NCBI GenBank assembly: GCA_015499995.1
Contig: JADNRV010000028.1
Location: 124,001 to 188,000 of the forward strand
Source of the DNA: Flammula alnicola
Lineage: Eukaryota; Basidiomycota; Agaricomycetes; Agaricales; Strophariaceae
DNA: 64,000 nucleotides
Reading direction: 5' to 3'
Shown here piece after piece: positions 17,301-57,300 of this stretch (position 1 is its first letter; every line of letters begins with the position of its first letter). Under the pieces are notes generated by a model. That model saw only the letters and a list, made by a program, of their open reading frames with translations, was not told the DNA's origin and searched no databases. The position numbers and the translations under genes are program-made.

Positions 17301-20115
17301 TCCATTCCTCTCTTTTTGCATTTTTTTTGGGGGGGTTCTTTTTTGATCTGGGTCTCTGATCTAATGTGACGGAACTTGAGCGCTTGAGCGCTTGAGCTTG
17401 AATACGCATATGGTCTGACGGCTTCTGACGGACATGACATGTTATAAGACAAGACACAAGAGGATATCTGTTACTCTATTTCTCTGGTGCTTTTTACTCT
17501 GGGTCTCGTGCGGTTGTATATGCATACGGTCTGACGTGCCTGTTACTCTCCTTCTGCGGTGTCCTGAGTGTTGTTCTGTAACGCTGGCGGCTGATGCTGA
17601 GATGTGCTTTGTTTGGTGTTTGTAGGATAGTGTAGGATTGCCCTACCCCTCCGTGCGATGTGGGTGATTGCTGGAAGCTCTTGGGGATTGTGTCGCTTGC
17701 TTGGTCGCTTGGGATTGGAAGGCTCAGTGGGACCTTGGGATCAGCCAAGTTGGATTCGGAATTGGAAGTTTACTTATGGGAGATAGAACTTGCACGATGG
17801 AGAGGTTTGTGCGTACTACAGATTGTTGTACCTGGTCGACGTAAATTGGTGTACGACTGGTGATAGTACTTGAGGAAGAAAGTGATACTTGCAATTGATA
17901 TGTAGAGGTTATCTAAATCTGATTATGGTTCTGTGAGCGACTCGGAGCTCGAGGTAGCTTCTACTTTCCGGGTTACAAGTTAAACATTAACACTTTAAGA
18001 GAAATGGCGCTCCAATGGCGCTAGATGCTAATATGATATGTCTATGGGATAGTTGGTTAAACTGACTTGCCAAGTAAACGATGACTACTGAATAAAGAGT
18101 AGACCTATGATATGGTAACATCAATATCTTTGCGTAGAGCAATTTATAAGGCTCGAGGGAGTGATGACAAGTAAGCAAAAGAAGAAGCGGTGCCCGACTG
18201 AAGCATTTGGGGCTGACCCGAGTACGAAGCTGATGCGCTTCTCTCTCCTGAAGTCAAGTACGGATCGCTTGAAAATCCCGAACTTTGGTTATCAGAACTT
18301 TGAGAATTTTCCGAGGATCCAGGGTTGGAAGCGACCGAAGAGAGCTGGGTAATCACCGTATACGAGGGCGCCTCCGTGCTGGTAAAATTGCTTGCCTCGG
18401 TCCTATTTCCGGGTTCAGGTTGGTCGCCAGTAGTTGGTTTCTCAGCATCCGAGTCCGCCTCGTGCCGTGCAGCTCTTGGCGAACCAGTGTTATCGCCGAC
18501 TTTATGCAGTTTATGGTATATCAGCATCGTGACGACAAGTATGTTCGAAACGAGCAAGGCGAAAGCGGCCTAGACACAGTATATATGAGCTGATCAATAG
18601 CACACTGATTGGAAATGTAATTCGTTCTTTGAATCTTTGCTTACCTGGATGTAGGCCGTCATCGTGAAAAACAAAGGTAAATCAAGTCCTAAACGACGAG
18701 CGACTGTAAACCACAATATAACATATATGACAGAGGCGATGATTGTCAAAATACTGCTCGAGAACAGGACCAGAAGAAGGATACGCTGCTTTGGTGGGAG
18801 CTTGACTCGCCAAAGCATGATGACCGGAGCTATAACGAGTACGACATCTGTGAGAGTGTCCACTATGCCGAGAGATAGCCAGATAAATTCGTGAAGTATT
18901 GCAGAGACACAATGGCCACGTACGAATTAAGGCGCCGATGAGTGCAGCAACGTTTAAGGAATGAGCCTCCGTTGTGCACCTTTGGTAATTGAGCTGCCAC
19001 CATGGCGATCCTTCACAGGCGAAAGTGACGATGAACGTGCTTGCGAGGTAGCAAAGGATAAGGATGCCAATGAAGTAGAAGGCCCATATTCTGAACGGAT
19101 GACCGGGAAGAAAGATCCTTGCAACGGACAGCGCAAGACATATTTTGGACACCCTACGTGATGTAAACAATGTCAGCAACAATGCAGAAGACGGGAAAAA
19201 TAACTTGCGTACCACACAATTGTGAAACATAAAAAAGAGCTGAACCATTCTGAATACACGAATGTATGGTCGTCCGAGGCGATCCAGGAAATTTCTTGAA
19301 AGAAAAAAAAAACACACTTCATCACCGAGAATTATACAAATTGGAAACATGGCGACTTACTATCTTTCCTGAGCTTGAACCACATTATGACGATATATAT
19401 GCAGTCTGCGACCATGGCTATCATAACTATACGGTCATCCCACCATAGACGTCTGGTCCGCCATCGATATCCAACTCGCACGAGAGTAAAGGTGATCGAG
19501 ACAAAATGAAGCAGCGTAACGCTTACTATCAGAAATGATAGAAAGTTTGAACGAAAAGAAAACGCCGGTGGCAGACAGTGGACGTACTTTTCCATGCGAG
19601 ATAGTTTTGAAGAGGCAGAGTCATGGCCAGCGGTCCAGCAAGGCCTCAGTATTCAACCACTGCTTGCCGACTACCTTAGAAAGATGAGACTTGGAGATGG
19701 AAAAATGTCAGTTTACAGGGCAAACCGCCAGGCTTCTTATATGTACACCAGTGGGCCCACAGGCAGTTGACAGAATCCATTTGGGGTTGAGAATGCATTG
19801 GCCGCCTCAATCTTGGTGACTTTTCAAGTTTCAGGGTTCGACTGTATTGCGTCTGACCTAACATAGTTACTTCGATGTCAAGGCATAGGGTGCGTTGAAT
19901 GCCAACACGTACCGAGTTCTCCGTTAAATGGCTGCGCTCCATTGGGATTCGGGAACCTCGTCAGCATAGCGTACTCGCCCTTCACTGAATGACTAGTACA
20001 AGCAGCAATCAATTGAGTCTGGAGTCTGGATCTTTCCATAACATTTCACGTTGATTTTCGCAGCGCCAAAATTTTTAATTGATGGGCTTATGTCAGATCA
20101 CTTGATCATAAGTTC
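17300..20115 (-). repeat. Segmental duplication block, copy C (inverted)
   Basis: Inverse copy of 6430-9030. It contains the rhodopsin-like gene with both flanks plus about 600 bp of spacer shared only with block B. It runs to within about 170 bp of the left end of the transposon at 20282. The longer match to B than to A suggests that B and C share the more recent common ancestor, or that A suffered a deletion. Confidence 0.8.
18144..19624 (-). CDS. Fungal rhodopsin-domain integral membrane protein, copy C
   Basis: Minus-strand paralogue of the genes at 3112 and 6844, with the same exon boundaries and start (MTLPLQNYLAWK). It keeps the VGYRWRTRRLWWDDR motif, the ALSVARIFLPGHPFR segment, WWQLNYQRCT, and the helix AAFALLVSNILVVTMLIYH. 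The tail is intact to SSLPRAL. It has a few in-frame changes, for example an extra SD before the AEKPTT segment and a Pro-Glu-Pro insertion. All joins stay open, so it is likely functional. Ligand and function are unknown. Confidence 0.8.
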
Positions 20116-20272: not shown

Positions 20273-20281
20273 GGAAGGGGT
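20273..20281. repeat. Left 9 bp target-site duplication
   Basis: GGAAGGGGT stands immediately before the left terminal inverted repeat and recurs exactly at 25490-25498, immediately after the right one. The bases outside the two copies differ. Confidence 0.9.
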
Positions 20282-20395
20282 TAGTCTCGGACCAGCTCTC
20301 TTAACCGTCCCAATTTGGATGTGACGGTGTGAGAGTCTGGGACACTTCCAACCAAGTAACCGGGACTTTGCCTTACGCGAATTCCCGGATTATGT
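20282..20395 (+). repeat. Left terminal inverted repeat of the transposon
   Basis: Begins TAGTCTCGGACCAGCT and pairs with the reverse complement of 25375-25489. The first 37 positions differ at only two. A divergent stretch of about 14 bp follows, then long identical runs such as GAGTCTGGGACACTTCCAAC and CCGGGACTTTGCCTTACGC. Confidence 0.9.
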
Positions 20396-20486
20396 CAGCC
20401 GTGAACGCGAACTTTCCGTCGCGACGCATTCCTCTTCTCTTCATTCTGCATACCCTATTTCCTTACCTCTACCTGTGTATATAGCA

Positions 20487-23084
20487 ATGAATCAAGAAAA
20501 CCTTTGCCCAAATCCTCCTGCTTCCCAAAGACAGCCACGTCGATCTGATACTGAGAAAGCCAAGGATGTTCTTCGCTACATGGCCGATAAATGCAGTTAC
20601 TTCTCACTTCGACAATTTCTGGAAACAGTATTCACTTCACAAGATGGTGACATTCAAAGGTCGGCAAATACATTCCTCACAAGTGGAAGAGCCTGTGGGG
20701 TCATGGATGAATGGGCAAAGAAGATACCGAGCGAAGAGATGCTGGAATGGGTGATGAAGAAGGCAACCAAGGCCTGCCGTCAGGAGTTTAGTTTTTTGAC
20801 GGATAGAGCCTCGCGGGGACCCCATCAAGACGATGCCAACTTTCTGCGTCTCTCAGCAGACCAGGTTTCGGTGTCGCTGCTCGAAGAATTCAAGCTCGAC
20901 GATCTGAATTCACGCTACATGCGTGTAACCCCGCAATTCCAACGTCTTCTGAAGGGAATCATTGGGAAAGATGGCGACGAGGAGAACCTAACAGAGGAAA
21001 TGAAAGTGCGAGTACGAGAAACTGCTCCAGTGAGTTGAGATATTTTACTGCCTTGTATAACTGTTTTAATGGAGGAGAATTCGTAGGGTCGTACTCTCGT
21101 CACCTCCATGGTTCTGAATCTTCGAAGCCGACGTACGAACTACCACAGTGTAATCAACGGGCTCGTTCTCTGGGATAACCGTGTTCACAAGCGCGTCCAC
21201 CAAGTCTTCAATCATTACGGAATATCCTCGTCGTATCCATTCCTTCTCAAAGGACTCAAAGCTCTTAGCCGCGACGCACTTCGGATGGCGCGAACAGCAG
21301 CAGCAGATGAATCAAAGATTAAAGCCTTTTTGTACGACAATTTCAATTGGGTATCTCGTGCTTGGGAAGCGACAGCAGCACACGGCAATGTTACCCATGA
21401 CGAAGTTTCTGCAATCCTTCTAGTACTTCCTCATGGCGCACTACCCGCTGGCCACATTGCAAGTCGGGCTCGCTTTTCAGCTACCTTCGGAACACGGCAT
21501 AGCATTCCTCCTGCCCGTGCATTAAACGAAATCTCACCAACTCCAGAAGATGTCACGGCCTTCCGGTCGAACGCTATCCTCCATATGCAGTACATCTTAT
21601 CTGAGGAGGTCAAATGTTTTCATCACTTCCGCTCCTCTCTCCCAGACTTTGAGGATCCTAAACGGATTACACCGTCCGTCACCGAGGAATACTGCCTACC
21701 TACATTTGATCAAGAACAAGGCTCGACTAGAGGCAACATGATTGTCCTACGACATTATTTTCTCGAAGTTCTTCGTCTGCCGGTCCCTATTTTTGAGCGC
21801 GTCATGTTTTTTGTCATTGGAGACAGGCTTACAACTGTTCGTGACCGTGCAGCTCAAGACCAGCGCGCTGTGGATCGGTCACCGCATTCTATTGACCGAC
21901 TCACTCCATTTACAATGACGAATGGGCTTATGCATTCGTGTTTGAATTACATTGACAATATCGGGCGTAACGCTTGGGGCGGCACTTCTGCGGATGCTGT
22001 CAGTCTTATCACCCTTCGCGATAAACTACCAAATCGATCTGGGCTTAACTTGAAGAAAATTGACTACTACGCTTGGCTCCGTTTCTTTGACGTCATACTC
22101 CGTGGTCTTGTAATAAAGGCCGCCATGACGATCCTAGGTTTAACCTGTGCATCAGACTGGGTGACATATAGCGCCGAATCTCTCGATAAATTCTCCATCT
22201 TGTGCTCTTCAATTTCGGATAAATTCCTCATCCCTTCTATGAACCGACTAGAGGCCGACGGCATCAAAACCATAGCAGGAAACACGAATTCTGGACATGC
22301 AGTTCTTCTTATGCATGACCTCATGCTTCTTCGAGAGATGCGTCATGCAATTAAACATGGGCATCCAACGCGAATCCACCGAATAGTTCGCTTCTGGACA
22401 CCTATGTTCTACGCTGGGGGTAGCTTCAACTACGCTAACGAGTTCATGGAGCTTCTCCATAATATGGAGCACGATTGGCCAAGCGATTCAGCGCAGGTAG
22501 CCTTCAATGGAATGCTTGTCAACAGCACTGGGAAACCTGGAAATTTCAAGGAGGCCGATATCCGGTGCGAGCACTTGAATGACGACATCAAGGCTCACGC
22601 ACATGGTGTAAATGCCACCCCAGAAAGCTTAGAAAAGTCAACACCTGCGCTTGGACATATCGGTAAACTTACGGACCAGCTTTATCACGATCTCGGGATT
22701 GAAGATCAAAATCAGCACCACGCAAAGGTTTCCCAACACAAGGACGCGGAAATTCTTGTCAACCATTTCGTCAAGAATGGTATATTTGATTTTTCGAAAG
22801 ACAAAAAATCGGAGCATGCTGTTATTGATCTTTATCGATACGGCCAACAGAGGCTTTCCGGTCTAGATGGCGGACACGCAAAGCATTTGTCTCGACATAA
22901 ACTCCGGCTTCGAACACGGGAAGCCCAAGAAAATCCTGACAATATTCAACAAGTTGAAGCAAGAGATGACTCGGAACTCATTGGCGGCCGTGATCGACGG
23001 TACATTGAACGAATTGTCAACGAAGAGAGTGACGAAATTAGAGATGTCGTTATGAGTACAGCAGATAGTATTGATGTAGAATAA
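20487..23084 (+). CDS. DUF6589 protein, putative transposase
   Basis: Exons 20487-21029 and 21087-23084 join in frame to 846 residues. The ATG at 20487 is the first in frame; upstream codons offer only GTG. The N-terminal ~190 residues are helical and unassigned. The C-terminal half carries the features I associate with DUF6589: an acidic strand FFVIGDRLTT (Asp about residue 427), NYANEFMELLHN (Glu about 633) and the block NSTGKPGNFKEADIRCEHLN. A strand ending in Asp, followed by later acidic residues in a helical setting, fits an RNase H-like DDE/D transposase fold. Which residues form the triad is inference. The protein lies between the element's terminal repeats, convergent to the helicase gene. 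It would act in the nucleus on the repeat ends. Confidence 0.8.
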
Positions 23085-25250
23085 TTACAAGTCAATTAGT
23101 GTTTCATATGGGGCCAGTTTGGTTGGCTTTGGATTCCTCTTACGCTTCTGTGAAGTAGTTGGCTCCAATATTATAGCTGGCGGAATCCGCGATGATGTAT
23201 CAACCTCGAGTTGAAGTGGTGGAGTAGTTTCAATGCATATATCAGCAAGAATCCGCTTGACTTCGCAAAAAAGAGGGAGTCCAAGAGCCAATGCATGAAT
23301 AGTGTGGAGTTTTCCGACAAGCTCATCTCCAGAGAGAATGGTACGGGCGTGCTTTGCAACCTCATCCAAGTCCAAGTTGGGAAGAATGTCCTGGGGTCCA
23401 TAACAAGGCCATTTTTCCTTCCACCCGTCTGTACGCCATATCGTGTCACGCCATTCGACCAGCGCAACAAAGATCTTCTTTTTCTCCGAGTCAAGCAGCC
23501 GAGGAACTGGGAGTGCGCTAGATGAGCTACTCAATGGATTATATGCAATGAACTGGCGCTCTTTTCCAGGTAATAAAGTGGGAAGACAGTTTCCGCAACA
23601 TCCGTTAGGGCGCAACGGTGAAGGTGAAACTCGAGGAGGATTTTCAAGCCATTTATCGATGACAATGTCGCAACAGCTGAGAGGAAAAGGAAGTGTTGTT
23701 GAATAGATCAGATCAAGAAGTGCGGGATCTTCAAATCCAGGTTTGTCGACAGTTAACTCGCCGCCGGCTGCCATTGACTTCTCCACCATGAGGATCCCAG
23801 TAGATATATCGCCTTGTCTCCGTCCACCTCGACCCCGTCTTTGTTCCCATTGAACCAGAGTTATTCCACGGCACCGGTACTGAATCACCCATCGAACCTT
23901 CGGAAAGTCAACTCCAGCGCCAATCTTGTCCGTCCCTAGAAGGATCTTTGTACGACCAGCCTTGAAATCTTCGACAGACTTTAGTTGGTGATCTTTCGAG
24001 AGGCCAGCGTGTAGTATGTCCAGCAAGCTTGCTGGGAGACTCATCGAGGCGAGGCGCGTATAGTACCACCAATACATATCCGTAAGCAGATCAATATCAT
24101 CAGAATAGATCAAGGTTTCGTCAATATCCGAAGACGACGTGGTTCCAAGCCGCAAGGTAAAAGCGAGATCGAGGAATGAGGACGAGTCGTGTTCCATATT
24201 CATGGCAACAACCGAGAGCTCTGGGCGAAAGTTTCCAAGATTGATCAGTCTGTATTCGGTTTTGAGGCCCGCATAGAGAACGAGAGATTTCCGATATCGA
24301 TCTGGCAGAGTTGCAGAGAGCGCTACAATGGGAACATCCTCTCCGATAATTTCACGGAGTTTATGGAGTCGAGTATAAGCAGGCCGCCAAGAATTGTGTT
24401 CGTGTACGCAGTGGGCCTCGTCAATGTAAACCGCAGATAATCTCAATCTAAACACGTCAGAGAACAGAACTCTTGCAAACGCAGGTGTTTCCAACATTTC
24501 AGGACATGCGAAGATGAGACGAAAGTCGCCCTGAGCAGCGCCTATCAGAATCCCCTCGCTTTTCTTCTCAGCTGATATGAAAACCGAAGGAAGAGATGAA
24601 TTTGTGTGTCTAAGATACAGAAAAGTTTAAGTACATGTATGTATGTGACGAGAACAATTTCACCTCTCCTCTCCCTGATCACCAAGAGTTGTAAACGGCA
24701 CCAGAACCAGAGAGATACTCCCTGGTTGCACTAGCAATGGAAGGTCCCAGACCGTAGACTTCCCCATCCCTGTTGGAGCGATAACAACTAGATCCCCCGA
24801 GCGCCCAAGTATGAAATTCGCCGACTCCATCTGATATGGATGAAGTCTCGACCCGGCCTTCAAAACACCTGCCTCCAGCGCAAGTTCATTCCATCTTTCC
24901 TCCGTTAGAGGTTTCAGAGGTTGGATAGATAGAACTTCTCCAACGGCGAAAGCAGCGCGCGTAGGACGACCTCGGCTGGAGAGGGAATAAGGCGTGTATC
25001 CCGGGGCTTGAGGCGTGACCTCGTAACCATTGCGCCTCTGCTTCTTTGGCTGTCGGTCTGGAAGTGACAATGGTGCAGACGTTGAGAGAGATTGAGAGCC
25101 GGAAGGGGTTGTTGGAGTAGAAACAGAAACGCCCGGCGTGAGGAGTGGGGCGTTGAGCGTGTTGCCTGTGATGGGTGTGAGAGGTAACTGGCGAGGGCGA
25201 TGTTGACGAGTAGGGGGCCAGACCAGCTGGGAACGCATGTTTTCGGACAT
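23085..25250 (-). CDS. RecQ-like SF2 DNA helicase of the transposon
   Basis: Exons 24664-25250 and 23085-24609 on the minus strand, with a 54 bp GT-AG intron, give 703 residues. Residues 1-100 are Pro/Ser/Thr-rich and low complexity. Helicase motifs follow in order: HPYQMESANFIL (RecQ motif 0-like), Walker A APTGMGKS (158-165), DEAH (259-262), SATL (from 294), LLGTDKIGAGVDFP (motif V) and QWEQRRGRGGR (motif VI, near 455). A Cys cluster with CC and GCCGNC lies C-terminal to the helicase core, reminiscent of the RecQ zinc-binding region. It is an ATP-dependent DNA-unwinding enzyme by family. In this element it likely assists excision or repair-coupled replication of the transposon. Its stop codon directly abuts the stop of the convergent DUF6589 gene. 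Confidence 0.85.
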
Positions 25251-25374
25251 TAGAAGATTGTAGAATAGAAATATATAGATAGTAAGCTAAAGAAAATGAA
25301 AGAAAGAGGGCAGACGCGTCGAGGAATGGGGGAAAAGGAAGACGGCGCGCTCGGAAAACATATCCTAAAAGCTT

Positions 25375-25489
25375 ACATAAGTCCGGGAATTTGCGTAAGG
25401 CAAAGTCCCGGTTCTTTGGTTGGAAGTGTCCCAGACTCTCTTAGCAGGCCCGCCAAATTGGGACTGTTAAGATAGCTGGTCCGAGACTA
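25375..25489 (-). repeat. Right terminal inverted repeat of the transposon
   Basis: Reverse complement of 20282-20395 with few differences. It ends CCGAGACTA at 25489, directly followed by the 9 bp target duplicate. Confidence 0.9.
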
Positions 25490-25498
25490 GGAAGGGGT
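25490..25498. repeat. Right 9 bp target-site duplication
   Basis: Exact copy of 20273-20281 (GGAAGGGGT), directly outside the right terminal inverted repeat. Confidence 0.9.
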
Positions 25499-30065: not shown

Positions 30066-31149
30066 TAAATTGCTTTGCTCTCCAAAATAAAGATGTTCCT
30101 ATGTACCATATCATAGGTTTGCTCATTTTATTCAGCAATCATTTTTTAGTTGAGAAGCCAGTTTAACCAACCATTCAGTAGAAGCATCTTATTACCATGG
30201 TGGTAACATTTCTGTTACATAATGGGCTACCGTCCCTGGACGAAATTAGAATCGCATTTTTTGCTGTAACCCCAGCAATTTCATACGTCAATGAGAGCCT
30301 GCTAATATCGTCTCCTGTGATCCATAGGTTGCAATGCAATTTCGCCCCTCTGCAATCGCATGGTATTTCTCGGCATCGGAATCTCGATACAGCCCACAGA
30401 GTGTGGACCGTACCGTAAGCGCCTCCCTAATGCGACCACATACGCACAGATTTATCGTGGACCTTTTCACTTCCATCACGAACTTTTCGACGGCTCCTGA
30501 GTCCCAGCATACTTTACATATCGCTCGAAAGACCGCAATGTGAATAGGTTAGATGATATTTACGTCTGTCCATCCAGCTTGACGTTTGGGCCCATTGATT
30601 CGTTCCCTTCAGCCAAGCATGCATAGCTCCCGTACACTATGGCTACGAATTCCAAAGGACGAGCAAACAGGTCCAGCGTGAATTCTCTCGGTACCTGTAT
30701 GATTGTGGCAATGGATCATTCCGACTGTCGGGAAGTATGCCGTCATGCTCTGTACATACAACAAAATGACTTTCACTTGACCGAGGGACCCTGGTTACAG
30801 TAACTTTCCATCGCAATTGCACCCAGTGAAGCGCGTTTGGAGAAAGACGGGCCCGCAGTGCATTTTTTTATGTGTGTCGACTGGTTAGTTCCCTGCATTT
30901 CCAGTCATTCAACATCTTTTATATTCCAGATTACGAGTTTTGTGTGTTGTTGACATGCCACACACAATTCTTCCACTCCACCTTTGCCGCTGTCTCTTGT
31001 GCACCAACGCGCCGCCCATGAGACCACCGTGTGGCGTTATGCTGAACCTGCGAAAAAACCGACCTCATGGAAGGTTCTTTCAATTTTCATGACATAAGGA
31101 ATCAAGGATGCATATGTAACGCTTCGCCAATGTCCTATGAAATCGGGTG
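30066..31149. other. Gene-poor stretch before the inverted-repeat arm
   Basis: Only small open frames without recognisable domains on both strands. The first ~120 bp still resemble the 3' flank of the rhodopsin-like blocks. Confidence 0.4.
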
Positions 31150-33800
31150 CCGTATAATTGCTCTGTGCGTCGTCTCCCTGCATTCCCTTTATTTAAATTC
31201 CTGCTTCTGACCAACTTCGAAAAATCAGCTGCGTAGTCGACCTGACGCCCGCAACAGCGAACGCTCGTTGCTCTCGGTCGGACTCGTGACGGTCGCCATT
31301 TCAACAGTCCGCTTTTCAGACTCGCCGTGCTGCTGTCCACTTTGGTGGCCATTCTTCAAGTGACATAATGAGGGTCGTTGATGCTGGCGCCGATGATGTG
31401 CGTATCGTTCATCCTCTCCTAGCTGATGTTTTGCTTACGATCACTACACAACGTCCTCCGGACACTTAATCTGGACGCATTTAAAGCCTGTCGAGGCTCT
31501 CATCCAGCTTGTACGGGATGCGAGGGTTGGGTCGGGTCTGTGGTACGCTACTTACACGCTGCTGGTGAGTTTTGCCAACATCTTGCTTAGTCCGCAATAG
31601 CTGATGTATGGTGGCCTTTTTCCTGTGACAAGGTATATGATTATCTCTGCACTTTCGAGAAAGAGGTCTTTCGGATTCTGCTCGTGTTCGCTTTCATGAA
31701 TTAACTTTGTCCCGCCCCTTGTAGGTGACATACGTATGGACGTGTCCGTGGTCAATTGGATTGGTCCTCTTTTACTTAAATCGATATCTCCCGTTCCTTG
31801 ATTTTATTTTGCTATCAGAACGTGAGTCGTTTCCTTTGTCCAGGTGTAAGGAATGTTCTTACCTACGCAAATGCTACACCTACAGTGAATGCTACAAAGT
31901 CAGAGATGGTATGCATATTGTTCAACCAGCGCCTGTCGCAAAGGCCAAGAATATTGCAATGGAGCTGACGGATAAATTGTAGGCTTGCAAGCTGCTTTGG
32001 CCAATATCTCTATGTAGATTTCCAAGTTTCTTTTCTGGACCTAACTCACACATGAATCTTTCTAGGGGTCCTTACTGTGGGAATGCGGATAACCTCAGGT
32101 ATGTTTGATATTTACCACAAGGAAGCGCACCAGCCGAGGTTGAGCATAACCAACAAAAGTCATCCTCGTGCTTCGGACATATGCAATATGGGGACGCCGA
32201 CGACTGATATTCTACATCCTGGCTCCCCTGATAGTCGTAAGCCTGAATCACAACTCTATGTCTCCTTTACCGTGCGCTCACCGCCAATCTCCCTTTGTCT
32301 TAGATCGTCGCTGGGACGGACATTGTGATCATCGGTATACAGAGCTCTGTAACCGCTGGTAATTATTTCGTATGATTCCCATCCGTGAAGTGCGAGGCTT
32401 AAGGAAGGTCCAGAAATCCTTCCGGATCCAAATCGTCCTAACCAGCTAACATGCTTAGTCGGGAATCTGAGCAGCCTGGGTACAGAATTTAGACTCCTGC
32501 TCTTTTATTCATTGGTTTTCGTTATCGAGGCTGGTATGTGTGTCTTCTTACATTCTCATCGAGTGGAAAGGTAATTACATACATTGTATAAACAGTGATA
32601 GTGATTTTGACTATCATCAAAGCAAACCAACATTGTAGGTTTCTCTAGTCTGTTCTCTACTACACCCTGTTAATTGTCATCTTTAATTCAGTGCGACAGT
32701 CGTCATCGAGATGGGTCGTCCAGTTGTACCAGAATGGGATAATTTATTGCATTGCTATACTCTGTGAGTAACAATCATGGCCTTTTTAATCCTGGACTGA
32801 CGCTGACCTTCGCTATTACAGTGATGAGTCTTACAAATGCTATTATGGCGATCACAGCGCCGGTGAGTTGATACCCAATGAATTACCGATTTTGCTCTTG
32901 CGGCTTGCCTGAATATGCACCGTGAACCCTCGTCCAGCCTGCGTTAAAAACCGTGTTCTTGCAGTGAGTCCCAACCGAGTTAATGAATAATCAACTCGGT
33001 GACCTGATGTACCTGCCAAATATCCAGGATGCAACGCAATCTACACTCCATCTTCTGCAATCGTGTAATGTTCCTCATTCTCGAGAATCGCACCGCGCGC
33101 AGAGCCCCAGAGGATTTAGACCCGAGAGCGCAACCATTGTCGCACGCCGCTAGTACCATGGAAATATTCACGACGGTCGACTTGTACACGGTCGACATCG
33201 ATGAAAACGGGTCAGATACATGGCAGGAACGAGCAAGAAGAGAGTGGATCAGATGACGCCGTTCAGGTCTGTGCGCTGGTCTATACTAATAATATTTGGA
33301 AGTCGATTCCCCAACTAACGATATTCTTCCAGGAATTCATTCATATAACGGACATACTCTCTAGGTCCTTATTATCTATCATTATCTCTCACTATCGTCA
33401 TCGCCACCCGTCGACAAAGGGCACCTCGGATAGAAACACTTATACACGGTTCACCGGGATCCCCGCCGATCGCCTATGACTACCTCGCATTGCTTTCCAC
33501 ATTTCATGTAGAGTACTTGTTATAGACCTCTTGATGTACCCCTACATACACCCACCGCCCTCCACTCAAAATAACTTCTGTGTGCGATATAAATAAGCGC
33601 CAACCATTCATGATCATGATCATGATCATATTGAAAAGCCATGTGCATACGTAGGTAGGCACGCCGATCATCCATCAAGCTTGTTCGACGCAACTATCAC
33701 GAATATTAATATTCTATGTACCCCGGTTGATATATATCGCATCGGGCAACTTCGAAGCAGCTTCTCTTCTCTTCTCTTCCCCTCGAGCGCTCTCGCACGT
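31150..33800 (+). repeat. Left arm of a large inverted repeat
   Basis: Pairs with the reverse complement of about 39300-42150. Matching continues outside the genes: upstream around 31170-31340 (a GTCTCCCTG stretch and a CGCCATTTCA stretch), across all DUF6533 exons and introns, and downstream from 33600 (repeated GATCAT, AAAGCCATGTGCATACG, GCGTCGAACAAG on the reverse strand) to the TTCTCTTCTCTTCTCTT run near 33770. Arms are clearly diverged, so this is an old inverted duplication. Confidence 0.8.
31368..33256 (+). CDS. DUF6533-type seven-helix membrane protein, copy 1
   Basis: Starts MRVVDAGADD at 31368 and is split into about a dozen small exons. Spliced segments include ALIQLVRDARVGSGLWYATY, VYDYLCTFEKE, VTYVWTCPWSIGLVLFYLNR, YLPFLDFILL, ILVLRTYAIWGRRRLIFYIL, VAGTDIVIIGIQSSVTA, FRLLLFYSLVFVIEA, QLYQNGIIYCIAIL, LMSLTNAIMAITAP and the end NLHSIFCNRVMFLILENR. 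The YDYLxTxxxE / W.CPWSxxxxLFxxNRY block is the DUF6533 signature I know from Agaricomycete membrane proteins. The LRTYAIWGRRR loop after a later helix is also typical. Seven hydrophobic helices and a hydrophilic C-tail ending at 33256 are visible. Function is unknown; a receptor-like membrane protein is possible. One or two exon joins are uncertain. Confidence 0.75.
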
Positions 33801-39299: not shown

Positions 39300-42150
39300 G
39301 ATTGGCTCGCTCGCACAGTGAACGTCACGGTGCGAGAGAGCCGGAAGGGAAGGGAAGAGAAGAGAAGAGATGCTGCTTCGAAGTTGCGCACCTGATGCGA
39401 TATACATATGTATATCGACCGGGGTAGAATATTAATACTTATTCGTGATAGTTGCGTCGAACACAAGGATGGATGCCAGTGATCGGCGTGCCTGCCTACG
39501 GTAACGTATGCACATGGCTTTTCAATATGATCATGATCATGATCATGAACGGTTGGGCGCTTATTTATATCACACACAGAAATAACCATCAATCATTCTT
39601 CGTGGTCAAATTCGCTCTACATACTTATATGCATCGGTATAAGTTCCCCGACGCTATCCGAGTGTGGGCTGCGCACGGTCACCATCGCGCGTTGTCCGGC
39701 CCTCCAAGTTTCTTGGCCGAGGCCCGTCGGCATACATGTACATGAGGATCGCATCGGATACTGTGAGTGGTCGTGATCCAAGAGTGATCTGTGTGTTTCT
39801 CTGTTGTTGGGCTGACGCTGCCGCACGATAGTATAGTAACCCTTCTCTTCCAGGCGCGTGCGTGGTTATGGGTTGGGTGGTGAAGCTATTAGTCGGGAGA
39901 CTTGTGAGTAAGCATTGTAAAGGTATGGTCTCGACTTTCATCACTGCGATCACGCAGCTCCTAGTACGTAGAGGATCTTTTGTCTTTTGACTCGTTTCTA
40001 TCGCTAGTTAGACTATCTAGGAAGCAATTGGACGCATTGTATATGTGTACTTACATGATGAAGGTTTGATGAGGTCTGAGAAATACTACCCAAATATCAT
40101 TTAGACCCAGCGGACGGACTAGGGCGACGTCAACGTTCACTCGACCCACTCTCTTCTCGCTCGTTCCTGCCATGTATCCGACCCGTCTTCGGCGCTGTCG
40201 ACCGTGAAAAAGTCGACCGTCGTGAACGTCTCCATGATGCTAGCCACATGCGACGATGGTTGCTCTCTCTGGCCTAGTGCATCCTGGGTTCTGCGCGCGT
40301 TGCGATTCTCGAGAATGAGGAACATCACGCGATTGCAGAAGATGGAGTGTAGGTTGCGCTGGAGCCTGGATATTCAAAAGGAACCTCATGACATTGAGTT
40401 GTTTATTGGTAAATGCGGTTGAGACTCACGGCAAGAATATGGTGTTCAAGCCAATCTTCAGAGGTTCAAGATACGTGTCAAACAAGAGAAAAATCAGTAA
40501 TTCGTGGGATATCGACTCACCGGCGCTGCGAACGCCATAATGGCATTTGCAAGACTCATCACTGGTAGCAAAGGTCAGCGCCAGTCGAGTGTTAAAAAAA
40601 CGAGTACAGCTGTGACTTACCAAGGATAGCAATGCAATAAATTATCCCATTCTTGTATAGCTGGACGACCCATTGCGACGACGACTGTCGCACTGAGTAA
40701 AAAGACAATTAATGATGTGGAATAAGTAAAGCAAGTAGAGAGAACTTACAATGTTCATTTGCTCTGATGATGGTCAAAGACACTACCACTGTTTATAATG
40801 CCCGTGTGGTTTTAGTTACCTGTCGCACTTAGTGACAGTGTAAGAACACATACCAGCCTCGGTAACGAAAACCAATAAATAAAAAAGCAGAATTCTCAAT
40901 GCCGTCTCCAGGCTTCTTGGATTCCCGACTATGCATATTAGTTTACCTGGGTGAATTGGATCTGGCAGAATTTCTGAACCTTCCTTGAGCCTGGAATTTC
41001 ACACATAGAAATCATACGAAATAATTACCCGCGGTTGCAGAACTTTGTATACCCAATTGCACAATGAGCACAATGTCCGTCCCGAAGAAGATCTAAGAAG
41101 AAGGGTAGTTGGCAGTGAGCACACTGTAAGGACGATATAGACATATGGTTCAGGCTTACGACTACCACGGAAGCCAGAATGTACAATATCAGTCGTCGGC
41201 GTCCCCATATTGCATATGTCCGAAGCAGGAGGATGGCTATTTGTTATTATGCTCAACACACTTCCTTACGGTAAATCCCAAACATACCTGAGGTTATCAG
41301 TGTTCCGACAATCATAATCCCTAGAAGAATTCATTTGTACATTCGTTCTAGGAAATAAACGGACTTGGGAAACACACCTAGATATATTGGGGCAAGCAGC
41401 TTGCAAGCCTGCAATCAATGCGTCAGCTTCATTCTAGCGAACGCGCTGATTGCAAAACCACACCATCTCAGACTTTATTGTTATCTCAGTTACTGTGGTA
41501 TAAATATATAAGAACGCTCCTTATACCTGGGAAAACGAAAGACTCACATCCTGATAGCAGAGGAAGATCGAGGAAGGGGAAATACCGATTCAAGTAAAAG
41601 AGGACCAATCCTATTGACCACGGGCATGTCCATACGTATTTCACCTGCAACGGGTGAGACAAAGTTAATTCAGGATTAAAGTAATCATGAAGGCTGTCTG
41701 GACAACCTCTTTCTCGAAGGTGCAGAGATAATCATATACCTTGGAACAGAAAAGGCCACAGGCCATACTCCATCAGCTGCTGAGGACGAGAATGGGATTT
41801 TGGCGAAGCTCACCAGCAGCGTATAAGTCGCGTACCACAGACTCGAGCCAACCCTCTCATCCCATGCAAGTTGGACGAGAGTCTCGAGAGGCTGCGAAAG
41901 CGTTCAGATTATTCAGGCGATGGTGAGCAAAACGTGAGCTGGGAGAGGATCACGATACACACATCATCGGCGCCAGCCTGAGCATCAACGAGGCTCATTA
42001 TGTTACTTGAAGAATGACGATTGGTAAACGCGGATTGCTGAAATGGCGGCGGTCAGAACTGAGGACGAAGGCGCATTAGCTGCAGGAAGCTTTAGTTAGT
42101 CGAGAAAAAATCAGGAATTTAAAAGGAATACAGGGAGACTAATCCCAGAT
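39300..42150 (-). repeat. Right arm of the large inverted repeat
   Basis: Reverse-complement partner of 31150-33800. It starts with the GAAGAGAAGAGAAGAGA run near 39352 and the GATCATGATCATGATCAT block near 39530. It continues through the DUF6533 gene and its upstream region to about 42150. Confidence 0.8.
40137..41998 (-). CDS. DUF6533-type seven-helix membrane protein, copy 2
   Basis: Minus-strand paralogue of 31368-33256 with the same exon layout. It starts MSLVDAQAGADD and then has PLETLVQLAWDERVGSSLWY, VYDYLCTFEKE, VKYVWTCPWSIGLVLFYLNR, YFPFLDLPLL, AILLLRTYAIWGRRRLILYI, FFGTDIVLIVQLGIQSSATA, LRILLFYLLVFVTEA, SLTIIRANEH, QLYKNGIIYCIAIL, MSLANAIMAFAAP and NRVMFLILENRNARR. The C-tail ends DTWQERARREWVE at 40137, as in copy 1. 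The DUF6533 signature is complete. No stop or frameshift was found in the exons I could join, so it may be intact. Function is unknown. Confidence 0.75.
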
Positions 42151-54330: not shown

Positions 54331-57300
54331 CTATACCTCCTCCTCCCGCCAATTACTGTCAGAGTCGAGGTCATGCGCATCCGGGTCAAGAGATGTCGGC
54401 GGACCCCTGAGGCCCTTACGCAGATCAGGCGCCGCAAGCAATGCACCCTCGACCGTCCGCTTGCCTTTAAGGATCGTGTTCGTCTTCTCAACCATGTGCA
54501 AGCCCACCTCAGCGAGACCTTCCAATACAGGATTGTAGATGGCCGATGAAAGCGGTCCTTGGACGCCCGCCAGCTTGATCTTGCCCTCCGCCACGAGCAG
54601 CGCGGCGATCGCGACCGGAATGCCCACCGTGCGCGCCATGGCCGACGCAGGCCGCTCTCCTTGGAATCCCACGTTGGGTGTCTTCGTCCCGTACGTGATC
54701 AAAGTCGAAGTATGCACCTCTCGCTTATTGTGCCCTCGAGTGCTGTCCTTCGTGATAATCTCGTGCGATAGGACAACCATATCCCGCTCGTGCTGCTCGT
54801 ATTTCAGCTTCTGCGAGAGGAGATACGCGAAAATGTCGAGGGGGGTCAATGGGCCTTCAGGCAGAGGCGGCATAGGTGACCTTTGTGCTTCTCGAATCAT
54901 GGGAGACTTGACCAAGCCTAGCCACTCAAGGGCATCTTGAAGAGGTCCTAGATATGGCACAGGGACGAGTGACGACAAAGACGGGAGGACGCCTTCCTGA
55001 GTTTTGAGTTTGAGTGAGAGACTTTGAGCGACGAAGGTTTCCCAGCTTTCGAGATTGGTGATAGGATGAACGCTGTTGAGGAGGCCAATCTTAGAAAAAG
55101 AACCCATCAAAGAACTGAAGCCTGGATATCTAAAGATATGAGCAAATCAGCATGGTCACGAAAGGCTCCACGGGATCGATGCTTGGCAAAGAAATTACCT
55201 GAGGGTACCACGTACAAAAGTCGAAAGTTTAGGCTCCTGGTTAAGTTTATATTGGTCGATGTAATGAAGACTATTCCGATTTGGCAAGCCTTCAAGTTCG
55301 AAATCCGGCGTGATGGGTATGTCAGGGAAGTACGAGGTAAGCAAGTATCTGCTCGGTATATATTCCTCCTGCAGCCACTTTTAGGATGAAACCGGTACGC
55401 ATGGCATTGACACTTACCTTGGCGTTTAAGAGGTATCTGGCGTCATTCAACGCTGCAGTCAGCACGCCCTGCGGCCGCCAACTAAATTTATACCGTAGCG
55501 GCACATGCGAGTCTTCAGGAGCAGGCAAACCTCCGCAGAAAGACGTGAAGGACTGTATTTCTTTGTTACTCTTCTTCAGCCTGGAAATCAGCTCTCTCGC
55601 CGAGCAATGGTCGATGCCCGGATCAAGACCGATTTCGTTCAGCAACAATACGCCCTTATTCACAGCACTGTAAAATAAAACGTCAAATTCAACACAGTCA
55701 AAAGGAGCCTAATGGTCAGACTTACGCTGAATGGAGTTTAGACATATCTCTGCTGATATATGACGCTGTGACCAAGTGCTTCCCATGGTTGATACAATCT
55801 TGGGCAACCTTGTGATGCATAATCGCTGGCAACAAGCTTTATCATGGAATCTGAGTTAGCCTCCCAGCCACAAGGCGTGCAAGATAGCCACGTGGCATAC
55901 CTTATGACCACATCACTTTCTTGGACAAGCGACTCGTAGGATTTCAGGTCATGAAAATCGATAAGTCGGTACTTGACATTAAGATGCGGAGCGACCAAGG
56001 CCTGTAATTCGAGAAGTGAATTACTGGCTGCATAGCATAAAGTCAATTCCATTGAATTTCAGGCGCATGTAAGGAACTCCATACCAATAACGAGTTCAAT
56101 GTCAGGTCTTCGCGCAATCATGTCCACTGCCGGTTGTGCGACCATCCCACTTCCCAACATGAGGATCTTCTTTGGCTGCGAACGAACGACCTTGGGGGTA
56201 GTAGGGACCTCGTCGGTGCTACCTGCTTCCGGGGTATCCGTTTGGAAATACTGGCGAACTGATGGGTAGAGCCACTCGTGTTTTTCCGTGAGACGTCCGT
56301 CTGCAGCAATGGTTGCCTTCTGTAACGCTTTCGGATATTCACCACGAGGAGACGAGGTGTGGTACGTGATGAGATCCTCCAGATATGGTTTCAGCGCAGA
56401 AGAGAAGTGGTTTGACGCATCCAGTGGAATTGAAGCAGGCAAAATATCGACAGACATCATTTGAACGGAGGGCAATTCCGAAGGCAGAGTTTGGGGCCGC
56501 ACTTTGTAAAAAGGAGATGTAAGGGTAGTTGCTTGCGTGAGGAATTCGAGTCCGCCCTGTCCAGAGAATCAGATATGGTTGATAATCAAAGGTTTGATAG
56601 AAGAAAAACCTGGACGTCACAGCTTATATCACCGATATTAGTGAACCGAGCGCCACCGAACGTCTTTGCGCGGGCAAGGGCGACAGGAAGTTGATCGTTG
56701 GTCATTAGCCTTGGGAAAGAAGGAGACCATCCAGTACCATTAAGAAAGAGTGTAAGGTACGGAGCAACCTGCCCACAAGGTCAAAAAAATCGCAAAGAAG
56801 TCTAAGGTCATGATGTATTTCACCTTCTCTGCGAAGACCGAGGTATAGGATTGAGGCGACTGGTAATAATGGTCTCTATCATACTTGCCGCCGTCGATCC
56901 TGACGAAGTAGTCTGCGGGTTTCGCGTGAACAAGGTATATCTATGGCTCGTTATAGTGAGGTTTTTCTCTATTCATGGGGTGAATGTACCTTGTTCAGAT
57001 CGACGTTCGACCCAGTCCCTGAGATACTGAGAGTAAGCGGGAGTTCAAAAGACCAAGGTATGGAAATTATTTACTGCAGCCTTGCATGAGGGAAGGGAGG
57101 TCAGTCACTTGGACTTTCTCGATCGGAAGCTCGGATAACATAGAGAGACATCCTTCAGCAACCCGCCCTGTCCTACACTCCAACATTAAAGTCATATCAT
57201 AAAAGTGCGTGAGGATGCGTACCCAGTAAGTCCGAAGATAAAGGGTCCTAGTTGCGGTGGAGTTCCTTCATTCGCAATGACTGTTCCTATTTGGCGTAAA

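Follow-up and report, generated by a model that had tools for sequence, protein, structure and literature searches.

Several kinds of mobile element bear comparison with the locus described here. AcademH transposons, said to have been treated by Kojima in 2020 as a lineage of the Academ superfamily of DNA transposons, carry terminal inverted repeats (TIRs). Kolobok elements target TTAA, hAT (Hermes) and P elements generate 8-bp target-site duplications (TSDs), and Helitrons encode a Y1 Rep-helicase and have neither TIR nor TSD. We know of no helicase partner in the hAT and P superfamilies. As far as their accessible text goes, one source describes AcademH as the helicase-encoding Academ lineage, with TSDs of 9 or 10 bp, and AcademX as nuclease-bearing, with TSDs of 3-4 bp (PMC10045372), and another reports AcademH at low copy number in Basidiomycota, Ascomycota and Mucoromycota and ascribes DEAD and Helicase_C domains to AcademH, KolobokH or Helitron helicases (PMC10799480). 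The available portion of a third source presents KolobokH as a fungal group that combines a DDD/E transposase with a RecQ helicase, encoded downstream of the transposase domain in KolobokH proper and on the complementary strand in the rhodophyte Kolobok-1_CCri (PMC9587614). Helitrons combine an HUH function with a helicase (PMC12730594).

Within the window, the whole 64,000-nucleotide stretch of Flammula alnicola (Agaricales, Strophariaceae) DNA that was analysed (contig JADNRV010000028.1, positions 124,001 to 188,000, forward strand), positions 20282-25489 form a complete DNA transposon of 5,208 bp (Table 1). The original prediction gave it TIRs of ~115 bp, an exact 9-bp duplication, and two unbroken, convergent, intron-containing genes for a DUF6589 protein (846 aa) and a RecQ-like SF2 helicase (703 aa), and all three features are borne out. 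The TIRs begin with TAGTCTCGGACCAGCT at 20282 on the plus strand and, inverted, at 25489, and measure ~119 bp; the duplication is GGAAGGGGT; and both GT-AG introns are deduced from the reading frames. The DUF6589 protein comes from two exons with one terminal stop, and the stop codons of the two genes abut at 23084/23085. A Pfam search returned PF20231 (DUF6589, E 3e-82) for the first gene, and Helicase_C (E 2.5e-13) and DEAD (E 1.8e-6) for the second, which has DEAH, SAT and QRRGRGGR motifs. Elsewhere in the window, two open frames just left of the insertion (18682-19595, minus strand) contain hydrophobic stretches like those of membrane proteins, and the longer frame had no Pfam match. Positions 54331-55110 (minus strand) encode a Saccharopine dehydrogenase C-terminal domain (PF16653, E 9e-27) and are probably an ordinary host gene.

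Table 1. Parts of the DUF6589-helicase element, in window coordinates.
Feature	Position	Strand	Remarks
Left target-site duplication, GGAAGGGGT	20273..20281	.	9 bp; exact repeat of 25490-25498; single in the C175 empty allele
Left terminal inverted repeat, begins TAGTCTCGGACCAGCT	20282..20400	+	87% identity to right TIR; at least 41 genome matches
DUF6589 gene, exon 1	20487..21029	+	181 codons; mostly helical N-terminal part (homologue model)
DUF6589 gene, putative intron	21030..21086	+	57 bp, GT-AG; removal gives a single 846-aa frame
DUF6589 gene, exon 2 and stop	21087..23084	+	predicted RNase H-like DDE core with helical insertion
Candidate catalytic codon D265, in exon 2	21336..21338	+	
Candidate catalytic codon D427, in exon 2	21822..21824	+	
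Candidate catalytic codon E676, in exon 2	22569..22571	+	
Helicase gene, exon 2 and stop	23085..24609	-	DEAH, SAT and QRRGRGGR motifs
Helicase gene, putative intron	24610..24663	-	54 bp, GT-AG
Helicase gene, exon 1	24664..25250	-	Walker A-like APTGMGKS
Right terminal inverted repeat	25371..25489	-	
Right target-site duplication, GGAAGGGGT	25490..25498	.	exact repeat of the left one

In our view the element is very probably an AcademH-type TIR transposon that is autonomous and has moved recently, with the DUF6589 protein as its DDE transposase and the RecQ-like helicase as a conserved partner. When the genome (a 74.4-Mb assembly in 861 contigs) was searched for further copies, the left TIR gave at least 41 matches spread over many contigs, so the TIR match is the product of neither local duplication nor chance. 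Besides the window element there are two more full-length 5,208-bp copies, C323:53379-58586 and C223:363089-368296, which differ from it by 5 and 8 bases, respectively, and from each other by 9. Both frames are intact in all three, with at most one amino-acid change from the window protein in DUF6589 and at most four in the helicase. Five shorter copies (on C445, C852, C131, C812 and C556) keep both ends and have the interior deleted, and their longest alignments with the window element show 83-95% identity.

The three full-length copies occupy different sites, with the TSDs GGAAGGGGT, TCCGTTGCG and CAAGCACC. Both ends were read for eight elements out of the at least 41 left-TIR matches, and their TSDs comprise five exact 9-bp duplications, one of 9 bp with one mismatch, and two of 8 bp (C223 and C812). 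C562 was left out of this count because its ends have no duplication in common and its right flank is the same as in C556. C634 showed a single end.

Has the element moved recently? Intact frames and an exact duplication had suggested that it has, and the genome supplies near-identical copies and empty alleles in support. Contig C175 matches the window copy on both sides, with the left-flank match ending at 40962 and the right-flank match starting at 40954. The overlap is the 9-bp target, and this unoccupied site carries GGAAGGGGT singly, as had been anticipated. On C166, which matches the C223 copy along the latter's right flank, CAAGCACC occurs once, so the C223 duplication is truly 8 bp. 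An empty allele is thus present for two of the three full-length insertions; for the C323 copy, a left-flank search of the genome matched only itself, and no alternative allele was found. The flanks matched on C175 and C166 at 96-100% identity, and for this reason both contigs appear to represent the second haplotype in an assembly from a dikaryon. Insertions on one haplotype only, together with near-identical copies, argue for recent movement, and to judge from these alignments the two insertions look heterozygous. C175 also carries, at ~41375-41956 (L064/L070; allele of window position ~25900), a ~580-bp insertion that is missing from the window. It has inverted ends AGGACCTCCGAAAATACCCT and, read by eye, an apparent 8-bp duplication CTGCAAGT, and is apparently a second haplotype-specific small transposon.

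The proposed role of the DUF6589 protein rests on its predicted structure and on residue conservation. The predicted fold has an RNase H-like core with a large helical insertion ahead of the proposed catalytic E, and is most like those of the hAT (Hermes) and P-element transposases. In a Foldseek search against the PDB, whose matches are those of a homologue model rather than separately of the window's own model, none reached E <= 0.001 and the best was Hermes (E 0.003). A viral structure library likewise gave none at E <= 0.001, with a hAT-like Pandoravirus protein best (E 0.006), and a profile of 55 sequences matched no PDB chain by sequence at E <= 1. No DUF6589 fused to a helicase or other domain, and no long relative, occurred among 4,190 candidates, and none of the nine pattern matches on viral contigs was a relative.

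Conservation points to D265, D427 and E676 as the catalytic triad. In an alignment of 77 rows (the window protein and 76 of 120 listed DUF6589 homologues), D265 is D in 74 of the 75 non-gap rows, D427 is invariant (77/77), and so is E676 (75/75). The same residues are kept at every hand-grouped locus of the same genome that covers the column (9/9, 13/13 and 10/10, respectively), where D286, E598, E633 and E636 vary. E598 was dropped as the third catalytic residue because it is L at 3 of 12 loci. The choice of E676 follows from its conservation and from the points at which the aligned ranges of Hermes, the P element and RAG1 end, given the catalytic residue numbers of those three proteins. D672 is conserved equally with E676 in the loci read, so position also counted in choosing the third acidic residue. 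At the putative second catalytic Asp, the DUF6589 loci on C64 and C443 have GDGKT in place of GDRLT. The predicted fold and the conserved triad together support the DDE/D-type transposase that had been proposed, and the DUF6589 protein is likely to be a DDE transposase with the triad D265-D427-E676.

An accessory DUF6589, with the helicase or a host enzyme driving movement as in Helitrons, would be in keeping with the presence and conservation of the helicase. Long TIRs and the TSDs of a staggered cut speak against it, the former together with a TSD also setting the element apart from Helitrons. Moreover, the sole large non-helicase gene has a predicted DDE-transposase-like fold and a conserved acidic triad, and neither gene had a Rep/HUH domain in the Pfam search. 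We regard this reading as extremely improbable.

The likeness to hAT and P elements raises a different question, namely whether the element lies outside Academ, either as a separate DUF6589 superfamily or as a divergent hAT/P relative that acquired its helicase independently. The solved folds nearest to the predicted one, an RNase H-like core interrupted by a large helical insertion, are those of Hermes and the P element, and the 8-9-bp stagger of the window family is close to their 8 bp. However, only two of the eight family members have the 8-bp TSD of hAT elements whereas six have 9 bp, the Pfam search found no hAT or P domain in the element's proteins, and neither Pfam nor the profile search against the PDB detected sequence similarity to either group. 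The accessible part of one source assigns to the hAT/P/MuDR/Kolobok/Dada group a C/DxxH motif between the second D and the E (PMC9587614). Near the expected place DUF6589 has GLMH, in which the H is invariant but the first residue is G, not C or D. In addition, a helicase together with a 9-bp TSD in basidiomycetes is what the available text reports for AcademH (PMC10045372, PMC10799480). An origin outside Academ is improbable, and we retain the AcademH-type reading.

The best PDB sequence matches of the helicase are RecQ, RECQ5, WRN and BLM (RecQ/RECQ5 chains, E 7e-13). Its homologues fall into a close group of 48 proteins (E 2e-78 or better), the named members of which are agaricomycetes, and a distant group of 33 (E 3e-15 or weaker). 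Given the gap between the two groups, the helicase looks like a member of a branch of its own that travels on transposons. PF09382 (RQC) or PF00570 (HRDC) occurs in most distant homologues, and the window helicase matched neither.

Of 16 diverged helicase loci in the same genome (23 genome matches minus seven of the window element's own family), 14 have a DUF6589 match no more than 10 kb away, where chance would give 0.15; in 20,000 random placements, at most four helicase loci fell near DUF6589. Nine of these 14 pairs are convergent and five divergent (two on C261, and one each on C112, C113 and C153). Counted from the other side, 36 DUF6589 loci were clustered by hand, and 17 of them, the three full-length copies among them, have a helicase detected within 10 kb. 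None was detected within that distance at the other 19, where the helicase is either absent or too divergent to be recognised. Among these, C300, C79, C64, C335, C779 and C443 may belong to a further DUF6589 lineage that has some other partner or lacks one. On C261 (23929-36853) and C545 (44341-56254), two DUF6589-helicase pairs stand side by side in mirror orientation, possibly as tandem or palindromic insertions.

Contig sizes point to a similar association across species. Of the 48 close helicases, 21 are on a contig of identical base count to that of a listed DUF6589 homologue; identical contig sizes are no proof of linkage, and one of the 33 distant RecQ homologues also matched. Seventeen of the 21 size-matched pairs agree in species, compared by eye, and four are unnamed. 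The adjacent locus tags H0H93_015956/015957 of Arthromyces matolae are an example of a DUF6589/helicase pair. By this genomic association, the RecQ-like helicase is a conserved partner of DUF6589.

Two other elements of the genome have a DUF6589-helicase pair between ends of their own, with TIRs that differ from those of the window element. They are on C667 (5,717 bp, 9-bp TSD GTTATGCCT, TIRs 87% identical over 166 bp) and C623 (5,797 bp, 9-bp TSD GAGTTGGCT, TIRs 99% identical over 142 bp), and the 9-bp stagger is thus no peculiarity of one family. C848, with a 9-bp TSD, is a weaker case and counts less because the duplication was what singled out the pair, whose TIR is weak. The search for ends covered 12 DUF6589-helicase stretches, four of them extended, and reported mainly duplication-bearing pairs, so ends that lack a duplication could be missed among the nine stretches in which none with a credible duplication was found. 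The C856 and C153 stretches cover the DUF6589 side only. Candidates on C12 and C114 were rejected as inner repeats only, and one on C113, with palindromic flanks, was excluded. On C153, a stretch of ~1.1 kb (30468-31558; L014) separates parts of a DUF6589 match and has inverted ends TACCCTCC...ATTCCTGGTGGACTC, 22/25 matching, with no duplication found. It is perhaps an element inserted in the transposase gene.

So, which described lineage does the element resemble most? It shares with AcademH a helicase encoded beside the transposase (here with DEAD and Helicase_C domains and RecQ-family PDB matches), TIRs (119 bp, 87% identical), a DDD/E transposase (here by predicted fold and conserved triad), and 9-bp TSDs in six of eight family members, one of them with a mismatch. 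The 8-bp TSDs of the other two are outside the published 9-10 bp. The element is a close fit to AcademH, a label that rests on architecture and TSD, not on sequence kinship of the transposase. KolobokH, a fungi-only combination of a Kolobok-superfamily transposon with a RecQ helicase, is similar in gene content. It too is fungal with a DDD/E transposase and a RecQ helicase, the window helicase being RecQ-like, and, as far as the source text extends, the complementary-strand RecQ of Kolobok-1_CCri resembles the arrangement in the window (PMC9587614). In KolobokH proper, however, the helicase lies downstream of the transposase domain, whereas the window element encodes it in a gene of its own on the other strand. 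Furthermore, the TSDs of the window family are 8-9 bp and varied, and TTAA is not the TSD of any of these eight elements or of the three other DUF6589 elements. Membership in KolobokH is very improbable.

As an AcademH-type element, it would move by a route in which the DUF6589 transposase binds the 119-bp termini and uses an RNase H-like active site (D265, D427, E676) to cut at the TAGTCTCG ends. Joining of the 3' ends to the target strands at points 8 or 9 bp apart would then yield the 8-9-bp duplications. The helicase probably unwinds DNA at the ends or the target, or aids repair of the gap or donor site. The route would be cut-and-paste rather than replicative.

Pfam gives no function for DUF6589, a protein family found widely in mushrooms, and a literature search for DUF6589 and PF20231, in a partial library, found no relevant paper. 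The idea that the domain, if unrecognised as a transposase, would gain a function here is supported by the modelled fold and the conserved triad. The kind of element is already known, and what is new is a likely catalytic role for DUF6589 with named candidate residues. More tentatively, it is possible, if somewhat short of an even chance, that all DUF6589 proteins are the DDE catalytic domain of Academ-type elements, with a hAT/P-like core and a relict xxxH, and that the RecQ-like helicase sets the 9-bp stagger. If true, a DUF6589 core built like those of hAT and P elements would place Academ in the hAT/P fold group, and the 9-bp stagger set by the RecQ-like partner, usual but not detected at every locus, would stand in contrast to the 3-4 bp of nuclease-bearing AcademX. 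An intact, recently mobile element with two heterozygous-looking insertions would allow experiments on the purpose of the helicase and on 9-bp versus 3-4-bp duplications in Academ-type elements.
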